Below, piece after piece: positions 721 through 64,000 of a stretch of DNA of 64,000 nucleotides. Location of the stretch: the IMG/VR virus record IMGVR_UViG_3300033146_000850, positions 62,001 through 126,000 of that record; one strand, given 5' to 3'. Numbering within the stretch: the first letter of the stretch is position 1; the number at the start of each line of letters is the position of its first letter. The notes beneath the pieces are model-generated. The model was not told the origin of the DNA. It saw only the letters and a list, made by a program, of their open reading frames with translations, and did not search any database. The translations under genes were made by a program, and so were the position numbers. The DNA is from a virus.

Positions 721-1581
721 ATGAAAAAACAACACATTAAAGAGACTTTACTTTCAGATTTGGAAAAGGCTATGGAAGAACCCAAAAAAAATATTCCAGC
801 TGATGATGTTGAAGAGCTTACAATTAAGCCTGGTTCAAATACTGATTATGATTTATATGTAAAAAAACTTATGGATGATGAATATTGCTTCAAAAAAGAT
901 AATATATCTAATTTGAAACAAGGTAATAGACGTGATGCAATTAAAGAGCTTGGAGATGATATATCTAATGAGCAATCACCTGGAAACCCCAATGTAAATC
1001 GAATGTATCGGTTTAGAAATAATGATAATACACCTACAAAAATCGATATTAAAAACAATATATTACAAGGTGATGAGATTAGCAATAATCCTGTTGAATT
1101 ACAAGCTGGCAAGTATCGTTTTAAAAATAATGATATGTCAGGTAATTGGAATGTTGGTGATGAGATTACTATTCCACAAAGATTATCATTTAAAAAAAAT
1201 ATACTTGGTAAATTAGTTTTTGAAATAGATGTTAATGATACAAAAGCATATATAACTAAAGATTTCTTAGAGAAAATAGAAAATATAACAGAAGACGAAG
1301 GTGGTGGAGGAGATGTTGGTGGTGGTGAATCAACTGATGGTGGAATAATGACCTCAACAAATAATATTTCAACATATGCAACACCTTTTACTAAAAATTC
1401 AGTTCAAAAAAGAAAAAATCCTAATATGTTTTTAACAGATGACGAAGAAGTTGTTGAAGAAGATGGTAGTGATTTTTCCTGGACTTGGAGCAAAGTTAAA
1501 AATCCACAGACAAAACATGAACAACCCGCTATTGATGATGATTTAATAAAAAAATTAAAAATTCATACACATAACAGTTAA
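721..1581 (+). CDS. hypothetical acidic protein with internal repeats
   Basis: 286 residues from the ATG at 721, chosen because AGGAG lies just upstream; an in-frame ATG at 694 has no such site. I do not recognise a family. Seen: an acidic, highly polar protein with three or four degenerate repeats of the type Y-R/C-F-K/R-N-N ... G-D-E-I-S/T (roughly residues 55-175), then a glycine-rich linker (GGGGDVGGGES) and an acidic C-terminal part. No signal peptide or membrane segment. It is followed at 75 bp by gp6, so a role in baseplate or virion assembly is possible by context only. Confidence 0.7.
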   Translation: MKKQHIKETLLSDLEKAMEEPKKNIPADDVEELTIKPGSNTDYDLYVKKLMDDEYCFKKDNISNLKQGNRRDAIKELGDDISNEQSPGNPNVNRMYRFRNNDNTPTKIDIKNNILQGDEISNNPVELQAGKYRFKNNDMSGNWNVGDEITIPQRLSFKKNILGKLVFEIDVNDTKAYITKDFLEKIENITEDEGGGGDVGGGESTDGGIMTSTNNISTYATPFTKNSVQKRKNPNMFLTDDEEVVEEDGSDFSWTWSKVKNPQTKHEQPAIDDDLIKKLKIHTHNS

Positions 1582-1615
1582 AACAATAGAAATCAAGTTA
1601 TATTAATATTTAAAT

Positions 1616-1626
1616 CATAAATATTA
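1616..1626 (+). promoter_or_regulatory. putative late promoter (CATAAATATTA)
   Basis: CATAAATA differs by one base from the T4 late consensus TATAAATA and lies about 30 bp upstream of the gp6 start, the same spacing as other copies in this window. A gp55-like sigma factor is encoded at 36227-36676. Inference from motif and position. Confidence 0.5.
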
Positions 1627-1655
1627 ATATAAATTGAACCTAAAGAGGGATTAAA

Positions 1656-4076
1656 ATGTCAAATATAAATTTAATTGCAACAAATTTTGAAGATATTAAA
1701 AAGACAATTATAAATAAATATAAAAATGACCCAGATAGTCCATTTTTAGACTATGATTTTCAAGGTAGTGCTTTAAATTATCTAATAGATATACTATCTT
1801 ATGCTACAATGTATAATAACTATTATAGTTCAGTTGCTATTAATGAATTATATTTACCATATGCTCAAAAAAATAAAAACATATACGCACTTGCAAACTC
1901 TTTGGGTTATTTACCTAGAAGACCATCAAGTTCAATCGCATATATTAGACCAGAATTACCAGAAATATATAATCCTGATTTAACTAAAGATATTGTTATA
2001 CCTGTTTATACTAAATTAAAATCTCAAAAAGGATTGAACTATATTTTAATGGAAGAAATACGATTCAGATATAATTTAGCAACAAATAAATGGTGTACTG
2101 TAAAAAATAACATTTTTGAACCTGATGATTCCCCATATTATTATAAAATTAAACAGGGTCAATTCCAACAAGTGACATTTTTACCAACACAGCAACCATT
2201 ACAACGGGTATTTATAGATAAATTAAACATTGATAATGCTCACGATTCAATATTAGTTCAAGATACCACAAATTATGAATATTGGACACCATTTTATGAT
2301 ATTTCAGATTTTAATCTTGATATATCTCACGATAATATATTTAATAATAATGTTACAGTAGAAGAACTCAAAAATGAAATAATTATCGATGATTTATGGG
2401 ATAATTTTATATTAAATTTAAATTCAGCAAAAACATTTTTTTTAAGTGGTGATGAAGCTGGAACATATATTAATTTTGGTGACGGCACGCTAGGTGCTAT
2501 ACCTGAAAACCAAATGGATATATTATATATATTGACAGAGGGTGAAAATGGTAACGGTGATACTATATTTGATTTTAGTGGTGTTGTAGATTACTCCAAA
2601 ACTGATGGTAGTGTTGGAACTATAAACCTTAAAAATGTAAATGCAATAATACAACATAATACATCATCAACAGGTGGAAGTAAAGCAGAAACAGCTGAAT
2701 CAGTAAGACGTTTAGCTCCATCTTTTAATAATACACAGAATAGAGAGGTTACCGAAACTGATTATGAGGCATTTTTAATGCAACAAAACTCGGTTCAATT
2801 GAATAATGTTAAGTGTATAGGTGGTGAAAAATTAAAACCTATAAAAATGGGAGCGATTGGAATTTGTGCAAGCAAAACTACCGCTAATAATGATATCAAG
2901 GCATCTTTATTAACAGATACAGAAAAAGAACTGCTACGTTTTATATTAAAAAATCAAAACATAGTCTCAATAAATCCAATATTTATACCACCCGAATTTG
3001 TCCGAATAAATATTGATACTACTATATATTATAATCCAATTCTATATGAAGATTATAGGGTATTTCAATCCGCTGATTCCGCAATTAAAACATATTTCTC
3101 AATGATTCAAGGGTTTAAAAAATACTTTAAATCTTCAAATTTAATATCTGTATTTGATAAGTTGCCAGAAATAGACCATAATTTAACAACTGCTGACCTT
3201 GAATATATTAAACTGATTAAAAAAGAAAATATTCAAGAGTATATGTATATTAATTTTGGTAATAATAACCCATTAATGAAAAATAGTATAACGAAAACAA
3301 AAACATCTGAATATTTCTTGAAAATATTCAATAATAATACATTCTACGATTGGACTGAATACGACAAAATCAATAACCAATCAGGAATATTCATCAAACC
3401 TGATGGTGTTAGCTCTTGGGACTTTTCTAAATTTCAACACTCCTCAATCACAAATAAAAGTAAAATACATAAGATATTTTTATATGATTTAGTAGAGGAA
3501 TATACTGATAATTCAAATGTTGGTAATCTATATCTTGTTGAAAAAATGCCTCACAAATTAAAAGCTGTCAGGATAAACAATAATAATGATTTTCCATACT
3601 TTTTTAAATATGAAGATGTTCAAGAAACAGGTAAACGCAAATTAATAGGTGAAGTACAATATAATACTGGGTTAATTAGATTATATTTAGATAATCTATC
3701 TTTTAGATATCTTAAAAATAATAAAAAAAGTAGAAGAATTGCAATTGAAACAGTTAAAAATGAAAAATTTGTTGTTACTAACACCGGAACTGAAAAAATC
3801 ATTACATATACAGATATAGATAATAAAAACGATGCATATAGTGATTATGATGATATATTTTTCAATGAATATCCTTTTGATAGTGTTAGTAATCTACCTT
3901 GGCACGAATCCCCAACACCAACAATTTTTGAACCAAATACCAGAACTGTTACTGATGAGTTCTTTTTAGAGTTCGGTTTTGATACTGTAAGGGAAGATTT
4001 TCAAAGTCAAGGTAATATGATTTTAACACTCGGTGATTGGGTTGTTAAAAAAATTAAAGAGGTTAATAAAAAATGA
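1656..4076 (+). CDS. gp6: baseplate wedge protein gp6 (baseplate J-like)
   Basis: 806 residues (T4 gp6 has 660). The N-terminus carries the family signature DYDFQGSALNYLIDILSY (residues 32-49), followed by the typical NELYLPYA segment and a LGYLPRRPSS stretch, as in T4 gp6 and cyanophage homologues. gp6 forms the inner ring of the baseplate wedge and holds neighbouring wedges together; it relates to P2 gpJ. AGAGGG is the ribosome binding site and the stop overlaps the next start (ATGA, 4 bp), so the two wedge genes are probably translationally coupled. The extra length is in the C-terminal half, where I see no named domain. Confidence 0.9.
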   Translation: MSNINLIATNFEDIKKTIINKYKNDPDSPFLDYDFQGSALNYLIDILSYATMYNNYYSSVAINELYLPYAQKNKNIYALANSLGYLPRRPSSSIAYIRPELPEIYNPDLTKDIVIPVYTKLKSQKGLNYILMEEIRFRYNLATNKWCTVKNNIFEPDDSPYYYKIKQGQFQQVTFLPTQQPLQRVFIDKLNIDNAHDSILVQDTTNYEYWTPFYDISDFNLDISHDNIFNNNVTVEELKNEIIIDDLWDNFILNLNSAKTFFLSGDEAGTYINFGDGTLGAIPENQMDILYILTEGENGNGDTIFDFSGVVDYSKTDGSVGTINLKNVNAIIQHNTSSTGGSKAETAESVRRLAPSFNNTQNREVTETDYEAFLMQQNSVQLNNVKCIGGEKLKPIKMGAIGICASKTTANNDIKASLLTDTEKELLRFILKNQNIVSINPIFIPPEFVRINIDTTIYYNPILYEDYRVFQSADSAIKTYFSMIQGFKKYFKSSNLISVFDKLPEIDHNLTTADLEYIKLIKKENIQEYMYINFGNNNPLMKNSITKTKTSEYFLKIFNNNTFYDWTEYDKINNQSGIFIKPDGVSSWDFSKFQHSSITNKSKIHKIFLYDLVEEYTDNSNVGNLYLVEKMPHKLKAVRINNNNDFPYFFKYEDVQETGKRKLIGEVQYNTGLIRLYLDNLSFRYLKNNKKSRRIAIETVKNEKFVVTNTGTEKIITYTDIDNKNDAYSDYDDIFFNEYPFDSVSNLPWHESPTPTIFEPNTRTVTDEFFLEFGFDTVREDFQSQGNMILTLGDWVVKKIKEVNKK

Positions 4077-5293
4077 TAACCAATTCTATTGTTAATAAAA
4101 AATATCTAAGTATTATGGTTGATAGATTCTTCTCTAGATATCAACACGAAGAACAACCTCAATTTGTAAATTTCGTAAAACAATGGTTTAAATATGCCGA
4201 AGAATCTTATATTGATGAAGATGGGTCCACTAAATTTTCATTCTGGAGGACTTTAAGTAATATAGAGGATTTTATAGACATAGATAAAGTGCCAAATGAA
4301 TTGTTAAAGTATTTTATGGAACATTATGCTAATAATTTTAGTAATATTATTGAAAATATTCCATTTTTTGTGGAATGGGATATTGATTCTTGGGGTAATA
4401 GACATAGAGTTAAAGATTCGAATGGTAATATTATATATAGATACGATAATATTAGAATGTTTTTAAAAACATCTAGGAAATTTTTTCTATCTAAGGGTAG
4501 CTACTATTCTTTTATGTATCTTTTTAAATTGTTTGGAGGTTCATTGGAAATTATTCCACTAGATAGAGATATTATTAGAACTAGTGACCCTAGACACTTG
4601 TTAAGTGCTCCAAACCCTAAAACAAATAGAATGAGCCACGTTCACGGAATAGACCCAGACCCTTATGACCCAAATCGTAAAACTATTAAAGTTAATAGTA
4701 TAGGTGGAATTATCCCAATTAGAGATTGGTGGTATACTTTCTATTCTTATAAAATAATAACAGATTTGAGTGAGGAGTTTTACAAACCTATCGTGTTGGA
4801 AATATGTCATCCAGCAGGTATGAAATGTACTTGGAAAGAAAAAATAGATACAAGTAAATTGGATGGTTGGGGATATAATTCCTGGGGTAATATTAACGAA
4901 AACGATAAAAACTCCTGGGGTAATTTACTTGGAATATCTGAAAATCAACAAGTGTCATTAAGTACTACTTTTATTAAATTTAATAACACCAGCCCTAATT
5001 TAATGACTAACTATCGTGAAATCGAAATTAGAAATATTGGAGAACAACCATTAGAAATATATAACATCTCATCATCGGATAATTTAAACTTTACATTGAT
5101 ATTCGATGGGATAGATGCTGGACACACTCCAATAGTATCTATTCCTCTCATAATTAACTTTGGTGAGACGAAAACCTTTGCGGTAAGGTTTAACCCTAAG
5201 TCGATAGGTTTTAAAGCCTCTACCATCGTTATTGACTCAAATAGTGAAATTAATAATATTAAAAATATTGAAATAGAGGGATATTGTGTTTAA
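4073..5293 (+). CDS. baseplate wedge-associated protein with C-terminal ASH/HYDIN-like Ig domain
   Basis: 406 residues, overlapping gp6 by 4 bp. The centre contains FFLSKGSYYSFMYLFKLFGG (residues 137-156), resembling the KGTKNS-type motif found in gp7-neighbourhood or tail protein I-like baseplate proteins of large myophages. A Trp/Gly/Asn-rich linker (about 265-283) leads to a C-terminal domain (about 290-406) with the pattern of ASH/HYDIN Ig-like domains: IRNIGEQPLEI, GETKTFAVRFNPKSIG and a closing IEIEGYCV. Family knowledge: ASH domains are beta-sandwich binding modules common in cilia and in some bacterial surface proteins. Role inferred from position: baseplate component, perhaps an exposed decoration. 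Its stop overlaps the stop of the convergent lipoprotein gene. Confidence 0.65.
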   Translation: MITNSIVNKKYLSIMVDRFFSRYQHEEQPQFVNFVKQWFKYAEESYIDEDGSTKFSFWRTLSNIEDFIDIDKVPNELLKYFMEHYANNFSNIIENIPFFVEWDIDSWGNRHRVKDSNGNIIYRYDNIRMFLKTSRKFFLSKGSYYSFMYLFKLFGGSLEIIPLDRDIIRTSDPRHLLSAPNPKTNRMSHVHGIDPDPYDPNRKTIKVNSIGGIIPIRDWWYTFYSYKIITDLSEEFYKPIVLEICHPAGMKCTWKEKIDTSKLDGWGYNSWGNINENDKNSWGNLLGISENQQVSLSTTFIKFNNTSPNLMTNYREIEIRNIGEQPLEIYNISSSDNLNFTLIFDGIDAGHTPIVSIPLIINFGETKTFAVRFNPKSIGFKASTIVIDSNSEINNIKNIEIEGYCV

Positions 5294-6132
5294 TAAACAT
5301 TTCTAACACATATTATTTGGTGCAACTCTTCTTGATTTTCTACTACCAATTCCCCATCTAAACCATCACCATTAATTACATTGATGTAATTTAATGCTGT
5401 TCCAGGCATAACATCTACATTATAAACCCAATATGACATTATAAAACCAGGTATTTTTGATAGTTCTACCAATGGTGGAAACATTGTAGCTGGGTTTTGA
5501 TATTTTGTATTTATAATAGTTCTCCAGTCTGTTAATTTTGGCACTCTCCAAGTTCCAACCATCTCATTACACCTCATATAGTTCCTACCATATGTGAACA
5601 TTTTCGAAGTTGGGTTTACTGCCCATTCTAATTTATTTCTTTTATCCGTATATCTATCACCATACATATCACTACCACTATATTCGTATATACTATTACA
5701 TATTGTAGAGTTACCATAATGAATACAATCTAAATGGTCATATCTACAGGTGTCATTCGGAAAACACTCTTGTCCATCGTGACCATAATTATCAAATAAA
5801 TCACCATCAGATAAATCACCATCAGATAATTCACCATCAGATAATTCATCGTTATCAATTAATTCATCATCAGACACCTCATCATCAATTAATTCTTCAT
5901 CAGATAATTCCTCATTATCAATTGTTTCCACATCATTAGAAATATTTTCACTATCAACAAGTACATCAACATCAATCAACTCATTAACATCAGATATTTC
6001 TTCATTGTCAACATCAATAATTGTAGATGAATCAGGAGCTTCAATATAAACTATTTTCTCTATAGTTCGCCCTTCCTCTCCACAGGAAAATAACAACATC
6101 ATTAAAATCATCACCATAACATAAATTCTCAT
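5290..6132 (-). CDS. lipoprotein with acidic repeat linker and DUF1566-like domain (moron)
   Basis: 280 residues from ATG 6132, chosen because GGAG sits 6 bases upstream and it gives a clean lipoprotein signal (LLFSC lipobox near residue 17); the longer ORF start adds residues before the signal. The mature part has a long Asp/Glu/Ser linker with repeated DELSDGEL-like units, a short Cys-rich segment, then a DUF1566/Lcl-type region containing WRVPKLTDW, typical of bacterial outer-membrane or surface lipoproteins. It is the only minus-strand gene in a 28 kb plus-strand virion block and has its own sigma70-type promoter. This suggests a host-derived moron expressed independently, perhaps altering the host surface (lysogenic-conversion-like or superinfection exclusion; inference). 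Confidence 0.75.
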   Translation of the reverse strand: MRIYVMVMILMMLLFSCGEEGRTIEKIVYIEAPDSSTIIDVDNEEISDVNELIDVDVLVDSENISNDVETIDNEELSDEELIDDEVSDDELIDNDELSDGELSDGDLSDGDLFDNYGHDGQECFPNDTCRYDHLDCIHYGNSTICNSIYEYSGSDMYGDRYTDKRNKLEWAVNPTSKMFTYGRNYMRCNEMVGTWRVPKLTDWRTIINTKYQNPATMFPPLVELSKIPGFIMSYWVYNVDVMPGTALNYINVINGDGLDGELVVENQEELHQIICVRNVY

Positions 6133-6172
6133 AATAATCTCCATTTTAAAATATAAAACTAAACACAAATTC

Positions 6173-6201
6173 ACTATATCACATATTAATCAACATGTCA
6201 A
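6173..6201 (-). promoter_or_regulatory. sigma70-type promoter of the lipoprotein gene
   Basis: Reading the minus strand: TTGACA (6201-6196), 17 bp spacer ending in TGTGA, then TATAGT (6178-6173). It is a near-perfect host-type promoter with an extended -10 (TGn), 41 bp upstream of the lipoprotein start. Confidence 0.75.
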
Positions 6202-6292
6202 GTTTTTTATTAATTTATTTTTAAAAAAATGAAAATACTAAATATTTATAAATCTATAAACAATGAGAATATAGGTAAATAATATAAATATA

Positions 6293-6300
6293 AAATATAA
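6293..6300 (+). promoter_or_regulatory. putative late promoter TATAAATA
   Basis: Exact T4 late consensus, 27 bp upstream of the giant DUF4815 structural gene. The ribosome binding site GGGG follows at about 6315. Confidence 0.6.
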
Positions 6301-6326
6301 TTTAATTAATCGTAGGGGATTAACAC

Positions 6327-9300
6327 ATGGACATTTTAAACAGAAAAGGTTTACAATATAGTAATTATTTTGATGACTTCTTTAAGGAAGGTGGTTTTGC
6401 TGATAAATATAGACAAATATTATTCCACCCAGGAAGGGTTCTACAAAGTAGAGAATTAACCCAATTACAAACTTTATTAAATGAATATAGTAAGGCACAT
6501 TTAGATAATGTTTTTAAAAATGGGAGTGTTGTTCAAGGATGTTATTTAACAACGTTTCACGATGATGACAATAACACTGATTATATAAAATTAGAGGACG
6601 GTTTGGTATATTTTGATGGTAGTATGTATAAAATATCAGACCTCAAATTAGAACTTAATAATGATTTTAAACATATATTGGAATCACAAACACCTATAAA
6701 CAAAATAAATGCAACCATTGGTATAATGGTTAATTATGAAATAATTTCAAATACAGGTGATTTATCTGGTGTGGATTCAGATGAACAATTGTCATTATTA
6801 GACCCTGCAATACAATATTTTGATGCTGAATCTACTATCGGTGCAGATAGATTAAAAGTATATTTTAATCTTGTGTTGAAAATTAAGGCTAATTCGACAG
6901 ATTATACTTATTTTTACAATAATGATGGGTCTGTTATAAACACATCAGAATTTGATTATGAAAACATTCATTATTTTGATGTTGCTAGAACTCTAATATC
7001 TTATGGTGATGTTGTATGGGAGCCAAATACATCATATCATGAAAATCAGATAATTATACCTACAATATCTAATGGGTATAAATATAAAGTAACAACTCCT
7101 GGTGATAGTGGTGTAATCGAGCCAATATGGTCATTAATTATAGGTAACACTAATATTGATAATACAATAACGTGGACAAATGATGGTGTTGAATCAACTA
7201 AATATTCCACAGAAAATGTTTCGTATCTAAATAGAAACTATAAATTTAAAGATGTTGATGATGGAGTAACAAATATCGAGGATTCTATATTAGAAGGGTT
7301 AGATATACAATCTAACAATGACCTTGATTTGAATATAAACTCAATCATTAATAAGCAAAATGATATATATAATAACCTAACTTATTTTAATGTTTCAAAA
7401 GGTATAGGTAAAATAAACGGAGAACACGTACCAACAGTAAAAAATACATTGTTTAAATTTGATAAACCATCTAAATTACCTGATGGAAGTAATAGTGGGG
7501 TGAATACCGAGGCTATCAATAGTTATAAAGATGATAATTCAAATGAAGGTGTATATTTTAAATATTTCGTAGAAAATAATCATTATTCTAGAATAGGGGC
7601 TGGACCATACTCGTTTGACCATTCAGAAAATTTCCAATTTATGTCCGTGGGTCGTAGGGTAGCAATTCAAGAATATGATAACTCTAATGGATTATATTAT
7701 ACAATAGCAAAGGCAAATATTTGTAATATTGATAATAAATATAATACAATAACTGATTTTAATCAACCTGAATCCTGGGATAAGTTTAAATATAAAGGTT
7801 TTTGGAAAGAAAACGAAAAATCATTATATATAGAGGGTATAACTGAAATAGATGAAAACGTTGCTAAACTCTATCGGGATTCTTCGAACTCATATACTTT
7901 AAAATTAACTGAACCAGTTGCATACGATATTTTAAATAATAATTGTAATGGTGGATTGCAAGCTATTGGTCAAATATTCAACTATGAAGATGTTGAATTT
8001 GAATATAAATATGTAATGTCGGCATCTGTTGAACCAGGTATCCCAAATTTCACATCAACTATGTATGTAGTGAAACACTCTAGTTTCAATTTAAATACGG
8101 CTGAACTTTTCAACAATAGTAAAGGCGGAATAATAATAATTAATAACGAGCTTTACACTATCGTAGGAGCTACACATATAACTGGAACTACCACCATACG
8201 TCTACAATTAGCTAGAATTGACTATACTTATATGTTAAATGTAGATGGGTCTTATTCTTATAATCCATCAATGAGAGCCACCGATGACATCACAACCAAA
8301 CAATCCACACCAGGTAATTATACACACGATATCAAATTTATAAAATACCACTTAGTTAAAAATATATTAGACGATACAACATTTACAATAGAATATAACG
8401 ATAATAATACATCCGACTGGTCACAGCTACCAACAAATCAAAATTTAGCTGAAAAATTTATAACTATAACGTCCCCTTGGGATGATATGAATGGTTTCCA
8501 AACAATAATACGAAACTCGACTAATAATAAAATCGACCAACGTGATAAAGTAATAACATATGAACCTATTGTTCCATATTTATTTAATAAATATCACATT
8601 TTCGCTGGGGATAGTCTTAGATTATTAAATGATATAACTCAAACAATACCTAAAAATAATTATAATCAAATTGGAGATGAGATAAATTTGAACCCAGGAT
8701 ATACCACAACATTGATGAAACCTGGGGATAGAATATATAATGGAATTACAAATAAAAATAATGTTTGTATCATTAAAGAAATTATAGATGACAACCGTCT
8801 ACGTATAATAAGTAGTGAGAGTGGATGTGAAATTGCCACTATTACTTATTATACCAGTTATCCAGGTACTCCTACTATTTATGAGTATATAATAACATTA
8901 ACTGATAGTTATATTATAGATGAAGAGATACTCAAACGTGGGGATTACATAAAAATACCTGGTGATAATTTATCCATAACAGATATCTCTAGTGGAACAA
9001 TAACAGCTTTAGGATATAATAATAATAATACATACTGTGGACCGTTTACATTTGGGGATATGCTAAGCCAAATTGTAGAAGATTTACATTACACCATAGG
9101 TGCAGATTTTTATAATTATAAAATTGAAAATAATGATATTTTTTGGGATTTCAAAATAGAAGATATTAAAAATATTGGCAATCCTAACAATGCAAATCAA
9201 ACCAATGATAATTCATTTGCTGACAGCAACAATCTAGGCACGTTTAATATATCATACCATTCTTCTAATTTTAAAAATACATATCTGAATGATATAATAT

Positions 9301-29079: not shown

Positions 29080-31116
29080 ATGTACGAAGAATTAAAAAAG
29101 AAAATTTTGAAAATTAAAGGTAGATATTGGTATAAAGAATTAACTAATGATGAAATTAATATTATAATAAAAGAAACATCATTTTTACCTAATAAATATG
29201 ATATAAAAATAAGAAGAATATATTTTATACATAATTTAACAAGTTTACAAATATGCCCCACCTGTGGTAAAGAAATACAATGGGATAGAAAACATCAAAA
29301 ATTTGGAAAACGATGTAGTAAAGAATGTTATATCGTTCCTGATGGTGTAACTATTGACCAAATAAACAATGAAACCAACTTTTTACCATCAGATATATCC
29401 TTTAAAAATAGGGTAGGATATTATAGATTAAAAATTAAAAAATATAAAAAATGTTTAATATGTGATAAAGCGATTGATTTTGATAATAAACATTTAACAT
29501 TTCCCGATTACTGCTCATCTAAGTGTAGAAAACAAGGACAAAAATATATTAATGAAAAAAGGAAGGATTCTTGGTCTAATAAAAACAAAGAAGAGATATC
29601 TATAATCAACAATAAAAGAAAAAATACTGTAAATGAAAAATATGGAGTTGATAATGTGTTTCAAAATGAAGATATTAAGGTACGCTCTAATGAGAAACGA
29701 CAAAAAACTAATAATGAAAAATATGGGGTTAATTATTACATAATATCTGATGATTTTAAAGAAAAAAAGAAAAAAACATTACTTGAGACTGTTGGGGTAG
29801 ATAACCCTATGAAATTCGATGACTATAAAAATAATCAACAAGACTCATTATATGTGAATTATAATGTTAGAAATCCTATGAAATCTGAAACAATTAAACA
29901 GCGAGTAAAAGACACGAATAATGAAAAATATGGAGTTGATAATGTATTTCAAAATGATGATATTAAAGAAAAAATAAAGAAAACAGTGAATGAAAAATAT
30001 AATGTTGATTATTATTCACAAAGTAATGAATACAAAGAAAAAATAAAGAAAACACAACGTGAATCATACTGGGACTCTTTTATAACATTATTGAAACAAA
30101 AAAGAATCGAACCATTATTTGATAAACACGAATATATAACGTATAATTACGGTGAAAACAATAAAAAATATAAATGTTTAAAATGTGATAAATCATTTGA
30201 AACCGTTGAATTAAAAGTTCAAAAGATATATTGTAAAAAATGTGCAACAAGAATGTCACAATCAGAGCGAGAAATATCAGAATGGATAAAAGAAGAAAAT
30301 AAAAACATCAATATATTAACCAATAAATTTTTCAAAAATAGTGACAATAAACGTTATGAGCTTGACATATATTTACCAGATTTTAATATAGGGATAGAAT
30401 ATCACGGATTATATTGGCATAGTGAATTATATAAAGATAAAAACTATCATAAAAATAAATATGAATTTTTTAAAGAACAAGGAATTGAAGTTATTCAAAT
30501 ATTTGAAAATGAATGGGTTCTCAATCTAGAAATAGTCAAATCAATTATACGAACAAAAATAGGCGTGGTTAAACGAAAATTGTATGGTCGTCAATGTACT
30601 ATTCGTAGCATTGAAAACGATGAATATAAGCAATTTTGTGAGTTAAATCATTTACAAGGGTATGGAATAGCAAAAGTAAGACTGGGATTATATTATAATG
30701 ATGAATTAGTTCAAATAATGAGTTTTTCAACCCCTAGGTTCAATAAATCATATGATTGGGAAAACATCAGAACCTGTTCTAAAATCAACACAATAATAAC
30801 TGGTGGATTTTCCAAATTATTAAAACATTTCAAGAAAAACTATAAAGGTTCAATAATAAGTTATGTAGATGCTCGATATTTTAATGGTAAAGGTTATATT
30901 AACAATGGTTTTGAAAAAATAGGACATAGTAATCCAAACTTTTTTTATTTTAAAACACAATCTATAATATTAGAGAATAGAATGAAGTTTCAAAAACATA
31001 AATTAAAAGATATTCTAAATAACTACAATGAGAATGTAACATCTAATGTTAATATGTTGAATAATGATTATTTAAGAATATTTGATGCTGGGAATATAAT
31101 ATTAAAACATAAATAA
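29080..31116 (+). CDS. homing endonuclease-like protein (zinc-finger repeats, Vsr/PD-(D/E)xK-type nuclease)
   Basis: 678 residues. Order: an N-terminal helical part; a zinc-finger pair (CPTCGKEI ... RCSKEC and CLICDKAI ... YCSSKC, residues about 60-150); four or five repeats of the type NEKYGVDNVFQNxDIKEK (about 190-325); a third zinc ribbon (CLKCDKSF ... CKKC); then a nuclease core with YELDIYLPDFNIGIEYHGLYWH (D, E and H residues, about 427-448) and a C-terminal domain. This build is known in phage Hef-like/DUF7487 homing endonucleases. It brings its own promoter, stands directly behind the most conserved gene, and looks like a recent free-standing mobile gene. No intron boundaries are seen in gp23. 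Confidence 0.8.
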   Translation: MYEELKKKILKIKGRYWYKELTNDEINIIIKETSFLPNKYDIKIRRIYFIHNLTSLQICPTCGKEIQWDRKHQKFGKRCSKECYIVPDGVTIDQINNETNFLPSDISFKNRVGYYRLKIKKYKKCLICDKAIDFDNKHLTFPDYCSSKCRKQGQKYINEKRKDSWSNKNKEEISIINNKRKNTVNEKYGVDNVFQNEDIKVRSNEKRQKTNNEKYGVNYYIISDDFKEKKKKTLLETVGVDNPMKFDDYKNNQQDSLYVNYNVRNPMKSETIKQRVKDTNNEKYGVDNVFQNDDIKEKIKKTVNEKYNVDYYSQSNEYKEKIKKTQRESYWDSFITLLKQKRIEPLFDKHEYITYNYGENNKKYKCLKCDKSFETVELKVQKIYCKKCATRMSQSEREISEWIKEENKNINILTNKFFKNSDNKRYELDIYLPDFNIGIEYHGLYWHSELYKDKNYHKNKYEFFKEQGIEVIQIFENEWVLNLEIVKSIIRTKIGVVKRKLYGRQCTIRSIENDEYKQFCELNHLQGYGIAKVRLGLYYNDELVQIMSFSTPRFNKSYDWENIRTCSKINTIITGGFSKLLKHFKKNYKGSIISYVDARYFNGKGYINNGFEKIGHSNPNFFYFKTQSIILENRMKFQKHKLKDILNNYNENVTSNVNMLNNDYLRIFDAGNIILKHK

Positions 31117-60141: not shown

Positions 60142-60660
60142 TTATTTTTTCTTTTTAATATCCTTTTTCTTTTTAGTGTCTTTTTTCTTTTTAGTATCTT
60201 TTTTCTTTTTAATTTCTTTTTTAACTGGTTTAACTTTTTCTAATGGTATATTTTCAACACCATCAACAACACCTTCATCAACATCATTAGCAGGTGTCAA
60301 TATTGTTTCTTTTTCACCTAATGTTATAGTGTCTTTTGTTATGTAGTCTGATACTGGTGATTCTTTCATAAATTGCTCAACATTATTTTCTGGTTGAACT
60401 ATTGTGTTGTCTGTTTCTTTTGTTATAAATGTTTCCATTAATTCAACAGGTGTTTTGGATGTTCCAACGTATGAAATATCTTGCTTTTTATTTTTAGTAT
60501 TCGGTATGTATTTTAGATACGAATACTTTGATGCTAATAATTTCTCCTCTTTCTCGGTTAAGATATGAGTTAAGTTTTTAGTCTCATTTATCCCAAACCC
60601 TATTTCGTTACCTCTAAATGTAACATTCAACTTCATTATACTAGAAGTGTTAATAATCAT
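60142..60660 (-). CDS. hypothetical protein with Lys-rich C-terminal repeats, 172 aa
   Basis: ATG 60660 after GGAGG. The first 65 residues are folded-looking (LNVTFRGNEIGFGINETKN, then KYSYLKYIPNTKNKK); the middle is acidic and flexible; the tail consists of KKKKDT repeats. The N-terminal domain resembles small virion or neck-associated proteins only vaguely. The basic tail may contact DNA. Leading gene of the minus unit, with a late-type motif upstream. Confidence 0.6.
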   Translation of the reverse strand: MIINTSSIMKLNVTFRGNEIGFGINETKNLTHILTEKEEKLLASKYSYLKYIPNTKNKKQDISYVGTSKTPVELMETFITKETDNTIVQPENNVEQFMKESPVSDYITKDTITLGEKETILTPANDVDEGVVDGVENIPLEKVKPVKKEIKKKKDTKKKKDTKKKKDIKKKK

Positions 60661-60674
60661 TTCAACCTCCTTTA

Positions 60675-60686
60675 AAAAACTAAATA
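60675..60686 (+). promoter_or_regulatory. putative late promoter AAAAACTAAATA (rightward)
   Basis: Left arm of a perfect 12-bp inverted repeat; reads towards gp15 at 60738. Confidence 0.5.
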
Positions 60687-60701
60687 AATATGTAACAATA
60701 G

Positions 60702-60713
60702 TATTTAGTTTTT
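60702..60713 (-). promoter_or_regulatory. putative late promoter AAAAACTAAATA (leftward)
   Basis: Right arm of the inverted repeat (TATTTAGTTTTT on the plus strand), reading towards the 60660 gene. The start points of the two divergent units would therefore overlap. Confidence 0.5.
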
Positions 60714-60737
60714 AGAATTTATTAGAGGATTATATAT

Positions 60738-61430
60738 ATGTATTTTTTTAATGATACAATATCAATATATACTATAGCATTTGGTAGTTTATTTAATAAC
60801 TTTAAGGTTCATCGTATTAGCAATGACAAAAAAGTTAAAGAAATATCGGTTCCATTATCTTATGCTGGTAAAACACATTGGTATATGAAAAAATTTCAAA
60901 ACATACCTGATATTGATAATATTGGTAAGATTTTACCAATGATTTCATTCACACTAGAGAATATAACTCCAAATAGAGAGAGACAAACTAATAAATTTGA
61001 AAATATACAGTTTGATGTTGATATTACACGTGCGGTTAAAGAGTGGGTTCAAACATCTATACCTTATAAGTTTGGGTTTAATATTAATATTTGGACAAAG
61101 TTTCAATCTGATATGAACCAGATAATTGAGCAAATATTACCATTCTATCCATCAGGTAGTCGAGATTTACATATAAAGGAAATTCCTATACTAGGAGTTC
61201 ATAGGAGTACACGGGTTGAATTATCCAGTGTTAATCCTGATATTCAAGTTGATTTCGATGAAAAAGGGGATAGAATAATACAATATAGTTTATCGTTTGA
61301 ATTGGATGGATATATGTATCCACCAATAGAGGAGAGTAAAATAATAAATAATATTGATATTAACACGTATATTGAAACAATACAGACTAATTATAATATT
61401 GAGACTATATTAAACACCGAAACGGAGTAA
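60738..61430 (+). CDS. gp15: tail terminator / sheath stabiliser gp15
   Basis: 230 residues (T4: 272), start ATG 60738 after AGAGG. Family pattern: YFFNDTISIYTIAFGSLFNN (residues 2-21), EISVPLSYAGKTHWYMKK, LPMISFTLENITPNRERQTN (about 75-94), then FGFNINIWTKFQSDMNQIIEQILPFY-like C-terminal helix. gp15 forms the hexamer that closes the tail tube and sheath and binds the neck. Next to terminase and sheath genes, as in T4. Confidence 0.85.
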   Translation: MYFFNDTISIYTIAFGSLFNNFKVHRISNDKKVKEISVPLSYAGKTHWYMKKFQNIPDIDNIGKILPMISFTLENITPNRERQTNKFENIQFDVDITRAVKEWVQTSIPYKFGFNINIWTKFQSDMNQIIEQILPFYPSGSRDLHIKEIPILGVHRSTRVELSSVNPDIQVDFDEKGDRIIQYSLSFELDGYMYPPIEESKIINNIDINTYIETIQTNYNIETILNTETE

Positions 61431-61432
61431 TT

Positions 61433-61906
61433 ATGATTGACGGGTTTATAAAATTTTTAACAAACCAAGGTAATATATATTTAGTTATTATTGCGTTTCT
61501 ATCTTTTGTTATATTTTATGGAATGAGATATTATTTTAATAAGCAAAAAAAAGATATTAAAAATAAAAATCTGATGGATGATATATCTAATAACATTAAT
61601 AATTCTATGAATAATTTATCAGAAGAGGTTATACTGAATAGTATTAAAAATGAAAATGGTTGGTCTGATATTAAAATTAATCTTAATAATTTAGATACAA
61701 ATTTAGAAAAATTATGGGATGCTTATAATTATAAGATGAACGAGCTTGAGATTAATAATAAAGTAAGGACTGATAAGATAGTAGATAGTTATATTTTGAT
61801 TTCCGAGGTTAAGGATGAAATTAAAGATTTAAAATATAAGGTTGAATTATTAATAGTTCAAATAGACCATAATAATAATAATACAACAATTAATAAAGGG
61901 TTATAG
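61433..61906 (+). CDS. membrane protein with coiled coil, 157 aa
   Basis: Two bp after gp15. One transmembrane helix near the N-terminus (IYLVIIAFLSFVIFYGM, about residues 15-31), then a long Asn/Lys/Asp-rich coiled coil. No family recognised. A single-span membrane protein among terminase genes is unusual; a holin or antiholin role cannot be excluded but nothing else supports it. Confidence 0.6.
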   Translation: MIDGFIKFLTNQGNIYLVIIAFLSFVIFYGMRYYFNKQKKDIKNKNLMDDISNNINNSMNNLSEEVILNSIKNENGWSDIKINLNNLDTNLEKLWDAYNYKMNELEINNKVRTDKIVDSYILISEVKDEIKDLKYKVELLIVQIDHNNNNTTINKGL

Positions 61907-61918
61907 AGGTTTTTAAAA

Positions 61919-62713
61919 ATGATTAATTTTAATGATAATGGTGTTTTGATTGATTTGAACTTTAGTGATGTGTATGTCATCGAGAAATGGATTAAGAAGA
62001 TGATACTTGAATTGAAGGGTGTAGAGAAACATCTATGTCCTTGTAAGTATAAAATTTTACAATTAAAATGGCATGAAGTTATTTACTGGTATTTAAATTA
62101 TTCAACTAGAATAATTATAAGTCGTGTCGTGTCGATTGAGGACTTTTTTAGTGAAATAACTAGAATAGTAGAATCTTATGAGCTTCTAATATATAATGAA
62201 AAGACAATATCTAAAAAAACATATTCGATATTTCGAGAATTACATCGAGTTGTTATTGATGAATTTGTATCCGAGGTTAAACACGAGATAAATGCTCATA
62301 ATAAAAATAAAGGTTCAATACTTGATTTTATAGAATTTATAGGTTCACAGCTATATCAGATTATGTTAAATTCTTTTTTTGAAATGAATGAAATATCAAT
62401 AGAATGTGAAGATAAATCCTGTCCTTATATGCAAAATGTAGAAAATAAATCTATTAGATTTCTTATTAATAATATGTATAATGTTAATAATTTTTCAGTT
62501 TTTAAACTTGATAAGTTTATTGAAATATTAGAGGGAGATGTTAAAGATATGGATTTCATTGCTGATTTTAAATATTTTAATGAACCATATTTATCACCGA
62601 ATATATTGAAAATGTTAAAAAAAACAAAACAACTTTTTAATTCTTTAAAAATAATCAATTTCGATAAATCTTTATTGTCAACGTTATCTGTTGATTTTTC
62701 TAAAAATATTTAA
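61919..62713 (+). CDS. hypothetical protein, 264 aa
   Basis: ATG 61919 with weak AGAGG upstream. Mainly helical, with two short Cys pairs (HLCPCKY and CEDKSCPYM) that might bind metal. No family recognised; placed between gp15 and the terminase genes. Confidence 0.6.
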   Translation: MINFNDNGVLIDLNFSDVYVIEKWIKKMILELKGVEKHLCPCKYKILQLKWHEVIYWYLNYSTRIIISRVVSIEDFFSEITRIVESYELLIYNEKTISKKTYSIFRELHRVVIDEFVSEVKHEINAHNKNKGSILDFIEFIGSQLYQIMLNSFFEMNEISIECEDKSCPYMQNVENKSIRFLINNMYNVNNFSVFKLDKFIEILEGDVKDMDFIADFKYFNEPYLSPNILKMLKKTKQLFNSLKIINFDKSLLSTLSVDFSKNI

Positions 62714-62755
62714 ATTAATAAATAATAGTATATTCAATTGTAATTGGAGGTTGAT

Positions 62756-63307
62756 ATGTCAAATGTAGGAATAGATTCACTAGATGAATTATTACAATCG
62801 GCTAAAGACAGGTCGTATAAACCTAAGAAGAATATAGATAAAAGAAATGATTTAAATTTTTCAGAGGAAGAAATTGATAAATTAAGAAAGGAAACCCTTG
62901 ATAAAATTGATGCTCACGTTAAAAAGATGAAATCTGAGGTCAATAAGGATGGTCTTGCTGATTATATGTTGGAAAATAGAATAGAATTATTGGAACAAAG
63001 TAAATATATGCTTAATGAATATATGGTAACGATATTAACGAATTTAGCAAGTAGTTCAAGAGCGTTTGAAGTTTTGGCTAAAATGATGGATACTGTTGCT
63101 AGTATAAATAATAGTGTTGTTAATATTAATTCAGATAAAGCTAAAGTTAAAGATAAAGATAGGGAACGAAAATTGATTGAAAATACAACTAGTATTATTG
63201 GTGATATTGTTCAGAGTAATATTTCTACGGTGTTAGAGCAAAATAAATTCAAAGATAAAAATGCTGGAGATATTACTGTTATTGATAAAAATGGAACTGA
63301 TAAATAG
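62756..63307 (+). CDS. gp16: terminase small subunit gp16-like
   Basis: 183 residues from ATG 62756, 6 bases after GGAGG; the longer frame starts inside that site. T4 gp16 (164 aa) layout: acidic N-terminus, central helical hairpin YMLNEYMVTILTNLASSSRA followed by FEVLAKMMDTVASINNSVV (similar to SPRxxEVxAxLM...N), then a variable tail. It forms the ring that recognises DNA and stimulates gp17. The terminase large gene follows at 39 bp. Confidence 0.8.
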   Translation: MSNVGIDSLDELLQSAKDRSYKPKKNIDKRNDLNFSEEEIDKLRKETLDKIDAHVKKMKSEVNKDGLADYMLENRIELLEQSKYMLNEYMVTILTNLASSSRAFEVLAKMMDTVASINNSVVNINSDKAKVKDKDRERKLIENTTSIIGDIVQSNISTVLEQNKFKDKNAGDITVIDKNGTDK

Positions 63308-63346: not shown

Positions 63347-63988
63347 ATGATAGACGATTATGAAGATATTGTTGATGAATCTGAAATATCATTAATTCAA
63401 GAGCGTGATAGATTAGAGCGTGAAGAGATAAAACAAAAAAAAATTCGTGAAGTAGAAGATAAGATTAGGCAAATACAAGAAGAAGAGATGAAACAAGAGG
63501 CTGAAATTGAGGCGATGGATGATTTTTTCAACTTGTTGGCTAAGGAAGATTTAAATTTTACACTAACACGTAGAAAACCTGATTTAGAAGATATTACTCA
63601 TGATATTACAGGTAAAGAACTAACATATGATAGAAACCATATTAGAAAACCTGCTGATGTTAAATTAGCATTGACCCCTGAACACGTTAAAGAATTGAAT
63701 TTTTGTTTGAATAATCCTGTTTATACTATAAAAAATTATGTCAAAATTATTAATCAGGATAAAGGTCTTATGGATTTTAATACTTATGATTATCAATCAG
63801 AGTTTATTAAGGAATGCTTGAGACATAAAAGAGTGCTTTCGTGCTGGCCCAGACAAAGTGGTAAATGTGTGGAGTATTCAACTAAAATTAAATATATTAA
63901 AATTCCAACAAGTTTTTTTAAAAAATTAATATATAAATTTATTAATTTTGTTTCTCCAACATTTTTTGATATTGTTATTATTGATTAA
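63347..63988 (+). CDS. gp17: terminase large subunit gp17, N-extein plus split-intein N-fragment
   Basis: 213 residues ending at a TAA, only a third of T4 gp17 (610). Residues 1-60 are a charged coil; 110-173 are the start of the packaging ATPase: VYTIKNYVKII, MDFNTYDYQSEFIKECLRH (adenine-binding Q-motif) and VLSCWPRQSGK, the Walker A motif. After the invariant Lys (173) the expected Thr/Ser is replaced by Cys174 and 39 residues unlike any terminase, opening CVEYSTKIKYIKI, then stop. This is the layout of a natural split intein at the Walker A site, as known for TerL of some metagenomic phages (AceL-TerL). The rest of gp17 should lie beyond the window. Confidence 0.85.
   Translation: MIDDYEDIVDESEISLIQERDRLEREEIKQKKIREVEDKIRQIQEEEMKQEAEIEAMDDFFNLLAKEDLNFTLTRRKPDLEDITHDITGKELTYDRNHIRKPADVKLALTPEHVKELNFCLNNPVYTIKNYVKIINQDKGLMDFNTYDYQSEFIKECLRHKRVLSCWPRQSGKCVEYSTKIKYIKIPTSFFKKLIYKFINFVSPTFFDIVIID
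63866..63985 (+). other. putative short split-intein N-fragment (40 residues)
   Basis: Begins with Cys directly after the Walker A G-K and shows the block A pattern C-V-x-x-S/D-T-x-I at its first eight residues (CVEYSTKI), then a basic amphipathic stretch FFKKLIYKFINF and ends FDIVIID. Normal split inteins have about 100-residue N-fragments; only the atypical class has fragments of a few dozen residues. The C-fragment would start the downstream gene and end in -HN or -GN before a Thr/Ser/Cys extein residue. Confidence 0.7.
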
Positions 63989-64000
63989 TGTAATCTTTTA

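Follow-up and report, generated by a model that had tools for sequence, protein, structure and literature searches.

A terminase large subunit gene broken at Walker A by a putative split intein in a T4-like phage

The window analyzed here comprises 64,000 nucleotides of viral DNA, bases 62001-126000 of the linear IMG/VR record IMGVR_UViG_3300033146_000850, and forms the right end of that record, which is 126,063 bp long and continues for 63 bases beyond the window. Close to its end lies the gene for the terminase large subunit (terL), which breaks off in the middle of the Walker A motif: the open reading frame (ORF) at 63347-63988 on the plus strand encodes 213 amino acids, reading ...WPRQSGK/CVEYSTKIKYIKIPTSFFKKLIYKFINFVSPTFFDIVIID before the stop codon (a slash marks a junction between host protein and intein). 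How, then, could a packaging motor be made from a gene interrupted inside its P-loop? The first-pass annotation of the window had proposed that the Cys-led tail is part of an intein. Our sequence analysis favors, with a probability of about 0.88, the view that this T4-like phage has a fractured terL and that a split intein joins the two products by protein trans-splicing.

The two halves of terL

The left part of the fractured locus extends over 63347-64000 (+), with the C half located outside the window. Residues 30-175 of the N half match the PHROG terminase large subunit family phrog_5989 (E = 1.3e-15, profile positions 26-171). The N-extein, TerL residues 1-173, occupies 63347-63865 (+) and ends with WPRQSGK, the first part of Walker A, a region through which relatives remain intact. 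Among the 34 relatives found in IMG/VR, those inspected show TerL homology passing through RQ[STA]GK and continuing with Ser or Thr (RQSGKSTT, RQSGKTTT); therefore the break in the window falls exactly after the Walker A Lys. The N-intein follows at 63866-63988 (+) with 40 codons and a stop, its Cys1 standing directly after GK. By itself this 40-residue tail has no match in Pfam or PHROGs, so that the profile search suggested in the first-pass annotation did not recognize it. It does align with the N-inteins of 7 other split TerL genes, and Cys1 and T6 are invariant across the eight sequences, confirming the earlier reading of its start as intein block A. This block, CVEYSTKIKYIKI at 63866-63904 (+), joins RQSGK directly and constitutes the contribution of the N half to the intein core.

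Searching IMG/VR with the last bases of the record retrieved a second contig, L040 (IMGVR_UViG_3300033146_000723, 20,864 bp), whose first 114 bases are identical to the last 114 of the record, the overlap reaching both contig ends. After the overlap, L040 has a minus-strand gene of 366 codons and then, at 1230-3146 on the plus strand and 1190 bp past the stop of the N half, an ORF of 638 codons that represents the C half of terL. It consists of a 160-residue C-intein ending in HTYYTNDIVSHN (SHN) and a 478-residue C-extein starting with TTTSASFMLFYILFNKQKTVAIVANKQ (TTTSASFML), placing Thr at position +1 (SHN/TTT). The C-extein contains Walker B (LLYLDEFAF) and the nuclease domain; matches to Terminase_6N (E = 1.7e-23) and Terminase_6C (E = 1.5e-11) correspond to the ATPase and RNase H-like nuclease domains of T4-type TerL (gp17). 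The C half also matches phrog_2 and phrog_5989 (positions 169-332, E = 9.3e-39). On the phrog_5989 profile the N half stops at 171 and the C half begins at 169, and therefore the halves abut in the family profile. The prediction that a C-intein, Thr, Walker B and the nuclease domain would be found to the right of the window was thus borne out, and a split packaging-motor gene that had been hidden by a contig end is now completed. Neither a chance stop nor a simple error of sequencing explains the break, given the continuation on L040 with a C-intein ending in HN followed by the missing part of TerL.

The two closest relatives, L059 and L060, provide an intact reference for this region. In L059, terL is a single intein-free ORF of 668 codons reading RQMGK/TTS, flanked in the same order by the genes found to the left of the break (60142-63307) and by the 284-codon gene found to the right of the C half; L060 has the same left-side genes and an intact, intein-free terL reading RQSGK/TTT. 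The C-extein is 71% and 68% identical to these proteins over its whole length. The gene order shared with the intact relatives thus makes the record and L040 behave as one genome, apparently invaded by the intein, the 366-codon gene and a homing endonuclease gene. The 126-kb record and the 21-kb L040 yielded no further TerL, and neither a second intact gp17 nor an in-frame continuation by sequencing error, which the first-pass annotation had named as grounds for abandoning the idea, came to light.

Walker A inteins in phage terminases

The identification of the insert as an intein is supported by profiles and by structure prediction. Pfam Intein_splicing matches 11 of the 12 members of the C-intein group, in which A-D-x-H, SHN and a Thr/Ser at +1 are conserved. 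Compared with the Protein Data Bank, the group profile retrieves gp41-1, the closest solved structure by sequence (E = 2e-13), VidaL in second place, and Cat, which both of the others outscore. An AlphaFold model of the L040 C-intein has a mean pLDDT of 85, and a fold search with it retrieves inteins. The window intein differs from gp41-1 in its host gene, which is a helicase for gp41-1, and in the split site, which is conventional there. VidaL, whose split is atypical and whose N part is very short, is also the best match by fold for L097, a contiguous relative of the window intein, with about 16% identity in that comparison.

AceL-TerL, GOS-TerL and the Cat consensus resemble the window intein in their TerL host, short N-intein and large C-intein, but they match inteins at Walker B (DE/C), whereas the window intein lies at Walker A (GK/T), has Thr at +1, is split earlier in the core and carries additional helices. 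GOS-TerL has Cys at +1 (PMC11766414). Because the Walker B DE/C inteins of Campylobacter phage F356 and Vibrio phage vB_VmeM-32 match the structure of Cat (the AceL/GOS consensus) best, and because Cys at +1 in GOS-TerL stands against Thr/Ser at Walker A, we infer that the AceL type belongs to Walker B and not, as the first-pass annotation had assumed, to Walker A. Membership of the window intein in the AceL/GOS group was rejected on the basis of its Walker A site, its Thr at +1 and its closest solved relatives, gp41-1 and VidaL. The related suggestion of a new member with a different split point holds for the split point, which lies between two helices; the fragment is not simply a longer AceL-like one and belongs to one of many fractured TerL genes. 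Contiguous TerL mini-inteins of Ackermannviridae (Klebsiella phage Magnus, Salmonella phage LPST94, Vibrio phage VAP7) share the GK/T site, with a C part about 33% identical, but are unsplit and lack the helical hairpin.

The Walker B insertions deserve brief description. TerL of Campylobacter phage F356 (MT863719.1; L049 1488-2816 and L054 1420-2148) is split at Walker B into halves about 38 kb apart by an AceL/Cat-like intein with an N-intein of about 26 amino acids, the junctions reading FIDE/CVAGDTKITV...RIG followed by a stop, and HN/CAFIDKW. The C half of TerL in vB_VmeM-32 contains a second, contiguous intein at Walker B.

In a census of the Walker A insertion, we collected TerL loci using searches with C-intein and N-side junction alignments followed by profile searches, collapsing redundant contigs by sequence; as the best-scoring 80 hits per search were taken, the numbers are sample counts rather than frequencies. 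This yielded 63 distinct TerL loci with a Walker A intein. Of these, 36 are split and have both halves in the locus, 16 have a contiguous intein, and for the other 11, L040 itself among them, no more than the C half was seen. Two or three of the 36 split loci may be sequence faults, e.g. L050/L055, which is partly masked, and L045/L053, whose halves overlap. Cys1 and SHN/T or S are conserved over the 63 loci, with Thr at +1 in 43 and Ser in 20. The halves are separated by at least 380 bases in about 25 of the 36 split loci. For L095, L099, L142 and other C-only loci, no N half was found on the respective contigs, with one weak match for L127. In L061 (N half 1840-2364 (-), C half 2471-4375 (+)) and L094 (N half 4458-4817 (-), C half 4902-6860 (+)) the two halves lie on opposite strands, and in vB_VmeM-32 (KU160494.1) the Walker A halves are about 80 kb apart in the record (L042 1102-3216; record 79983-80270 (-)); therefore TerL can be produced there only in trans. 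Fracture of terL at the P-loop is thus common among the phages sampled, and the window intein is a member of a widespread but little-described group: our literature search yielded no account of split inteins at precisely this TerL site, although key older papers lay outside it and earlier notice is possible.

Split point, splicing and alternatives

Where is this intein split? A subgroup of 13 split members (the window's phage, L061, L090, L091, L092, L094, L095, L096, L099, L104, L106, L111 and L142) shares a pattern at the head of the C-intein, x-x-[IL]-K-x-x-[IL]-x-x-W, followed by a strand like ISIGDLH, with Trp12 invariant in all 12 aligned heads. Where an N half was found, its tail has an FKK-like helix after block A, and the corresponding N-side helix in the window, FFKKLIYKFINFV at 63914-63952 (+), aligns with these tails and corresponds to the helix at 17-27 of the L097 model described next. 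The contiguous intein of L097 holds both helices in one chain, CVSSETLINIYTKPKNWFKILLLKILDKELYAKKSFFSRLKNKILRYCLDKQEISIEQFHN, and its model shows a strand at 7-12, helices at 17-27 and 36-48, and a strand at 50-55; the input alignment for this model contained C-inteins only, as N fragments came out misplaced when aligned together with C fragments. The model of the L040 C-intein starts with a helix at 2-13. In a tree built from C-intein columns without the heads, the 13 members group with L097 and L163 (support 95/65). Because of the L097 chain, the L040 model and the head-free tree, we place the split of the subgroup in the turn of a helical hairpin that would be inserted in the β2-β3 loop. 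The hydrophobic moment of the window's N-side helix exceeds that of shuffled sequences (p = 0.002), as does that of the C-heads as a set; among the N-tails this applies mainly to the window and L061.

These models suggest that the fragments dock by means of their two helices. An evolutionary scenario that we consider an even bet is that one lineage of TerL inteins gained a β2-β3 hairpin and was split in the turn of that hairpin, leaving each fragment with one helix as a built-in docking module for an N fragment of about 14 core residues. Among other split TerL inteins, the L112/L116 and L135/L158 groups seem to have acquired, independently, helices that flank another split point. Duplication of helix-coding DNA at the break was considered as another origin and discarded, since N-tail and C-head DNA match no better than shuffles and L097 explains the helices as hairpin arms. 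Split inteins of this subgroup may bring their own docking helices, which engineers now add by hand, and the contiguous relative L097 makes the docking idea testable.

In the proposed mechanism, the N half (TerL 1-173 with the 40-residue N-intein) and the C half (the 160-residue C-intein with the rest of TerL) would be translated separately, associate and fold into one HINT intein. The N fragment would supply about 14 residues of the intein core and one helix, and the C fragment would open with the partner helix, which most likely aids pairing. Cys1 would attack the Lys-Cys bond, the acyl group would pass to Thr+1, and cyclization of Asn160 of the C-intein would leave RQSGK joined to TTTSASF, restoring Walker A. 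Without splicing there would be no complete P-loop and hence no packaging motor, so trans-splicing would be essential, as the first-pass annotation had argued.

Several points weigh against this picture: splicing itself is deduced, the record and L040, which may stem from different samples, are connected through the overlap alone, the tree support for the helix group is moderate, and the amphipathicity of most N-tails does not exceed that of shuffles. The first of these, together with the unusual hydrophobicity of the N-intein tail, would be compatible with the halves being decayed remains of a gene with a dead intein, in a phage that is defective or uses another terminase. Such decay is improbable, considering that all intein and TerL motifs are intact, that the C-extein retains its full-length similarity to the intact relatives, that the 126 kb and 21 kb contain no other TerL, and that many distant phages retain the same split arrangement. 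The reliance on the 114-base overlap leaves a slighter chance that L040 derives from a different phage, joined by coincidence or through a shared repeat. The overlap is, however, identical and reaches both contig ends, the gene order on its two sides reproduces that around the intact terL of L059, and the window contains, at 29080-31116, a paralogue of the 595-codon endonuclease of L040.

Could the two polypeptides act as a two-chain terminase without being ligated? A precedent would be the phage ribonucleotide reductase that, according to a passage in PMC10448857, is split by a homing endonuclease gene and works as separate peptides. For TerL we regard this as no more probable than a false join, as the cut lies inside the P-loop, between Lys and Thr, and Cys-led N-inteins and HN-ending C-inteins before Thr/Ser are found throughout, neither of which assembly alone would need. 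In phage ICP1, terL is known to be spliced as RNA (PMC10448857), raising the idea of a self-splicing RNA intron in place of an intein. This is the least credible of the alternatives: neither side of the break has an Rfam match up to E = 1, the insert encodes intein blocks in frame with both exteins, and relatives have halves on opposite strands. Trans-splicing of a split intein thus remains our preferred explanation.

Gap gene, homing endonucleases and further inteins

The convergent 366-codon gene between the terL halves has its 3' end at 63978-64000 (-) in the window and continues over L040 29-1129, as derived from the 114-base overlap and the ORF list, and shares 11 bp with the N half. Library searches gave no family match for it. 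Because three tandem paralogues lie further along the same contig (L169 5141-8278), the data suggest that it was copied between the terL halves from within the genome. A homing endonuclease gene between the halves, as anticipated in the first-pass annotation, was not found in the window's phage, although one occurs in many relatives; instead, a homing endonuclease gene of 595 codons matching phrog_3339 lies 3' of the C half (L040 3211-4998 (+)). Split inteins usually have such a gene in the gap but do not depend on it. The gap ORFs inspected in relatives are nuclease-like, with zinc-finger and DUF559/VSR-like or GIY-YIG parts, as expected of fractured genes. The phage has three related large genes of the homing endonuclease type, at window positions 29080-31116, just after a capsid-like gene, at L040 3211-4998 and at L169 10137-11882.

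In 2009, Dassa and colleagues reportedly described host genes fractured into two ORFs, each fused to one part of a split intein, in association with a homing endonuclease. The window locus has the same two-ORF layout, and relatives at this TerL site have a nuclease-like gap gene. It differs in that the host is terL, broken at Walker A, the gap gene is convergent and not a recognized nuclease, the endonuclease follows the C half, and the split falls in a helical hairpin. A separate late promoter for the C half was considered and rejected: the candidate TATAAATA is located 32 bp upstream, but in DNA this rich in AT its motif is not clearly more frequent than in shuffled sequences. Immediately upstream of terL, the gene at 62744-63307 (+) probably encodes a gp16-like terminase small subunit, a name given from position and similarity (tblastn identities of 55% and 45% to the genes next to terL in L059 and L060), without a library match.

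Related C-inteins ending in HN before a Walker A Thr/Ser were also seen, as C halves, in other phage ATPases; the exteins are gp46/SbcC-like (L101, L103, L105, L121, L123, L152) or clamp-loader-like (L129, L131, L160), these names being given by inspection only. Walker A seems to be a general site for split inteins of this family. Outside the window, the same record encodes a UvsW-like helicase (L001 3028-5406, record 3028-5406) with a contiguous in-frame intein at Walker A (QSPTG/CHAKGDKVF ... ITKN/SGKS), which matches Hom_end_hint and has a LAGLIDADG-like stretch, LLAGMLDSGGDL. The contig with the inverted TerL half in L061 carries another in-frame intein at 5283-8198 (-), with a LAGLIDADG-like motif (GIIDGLIDGDG ... 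WNHN/CAGWD). At its left end (L001 1-1400) the record has three direct repeats, each about 145-172 nt long, together with a long stretch rich in TTTTC, and these features are a likely reason why the contig ends there.
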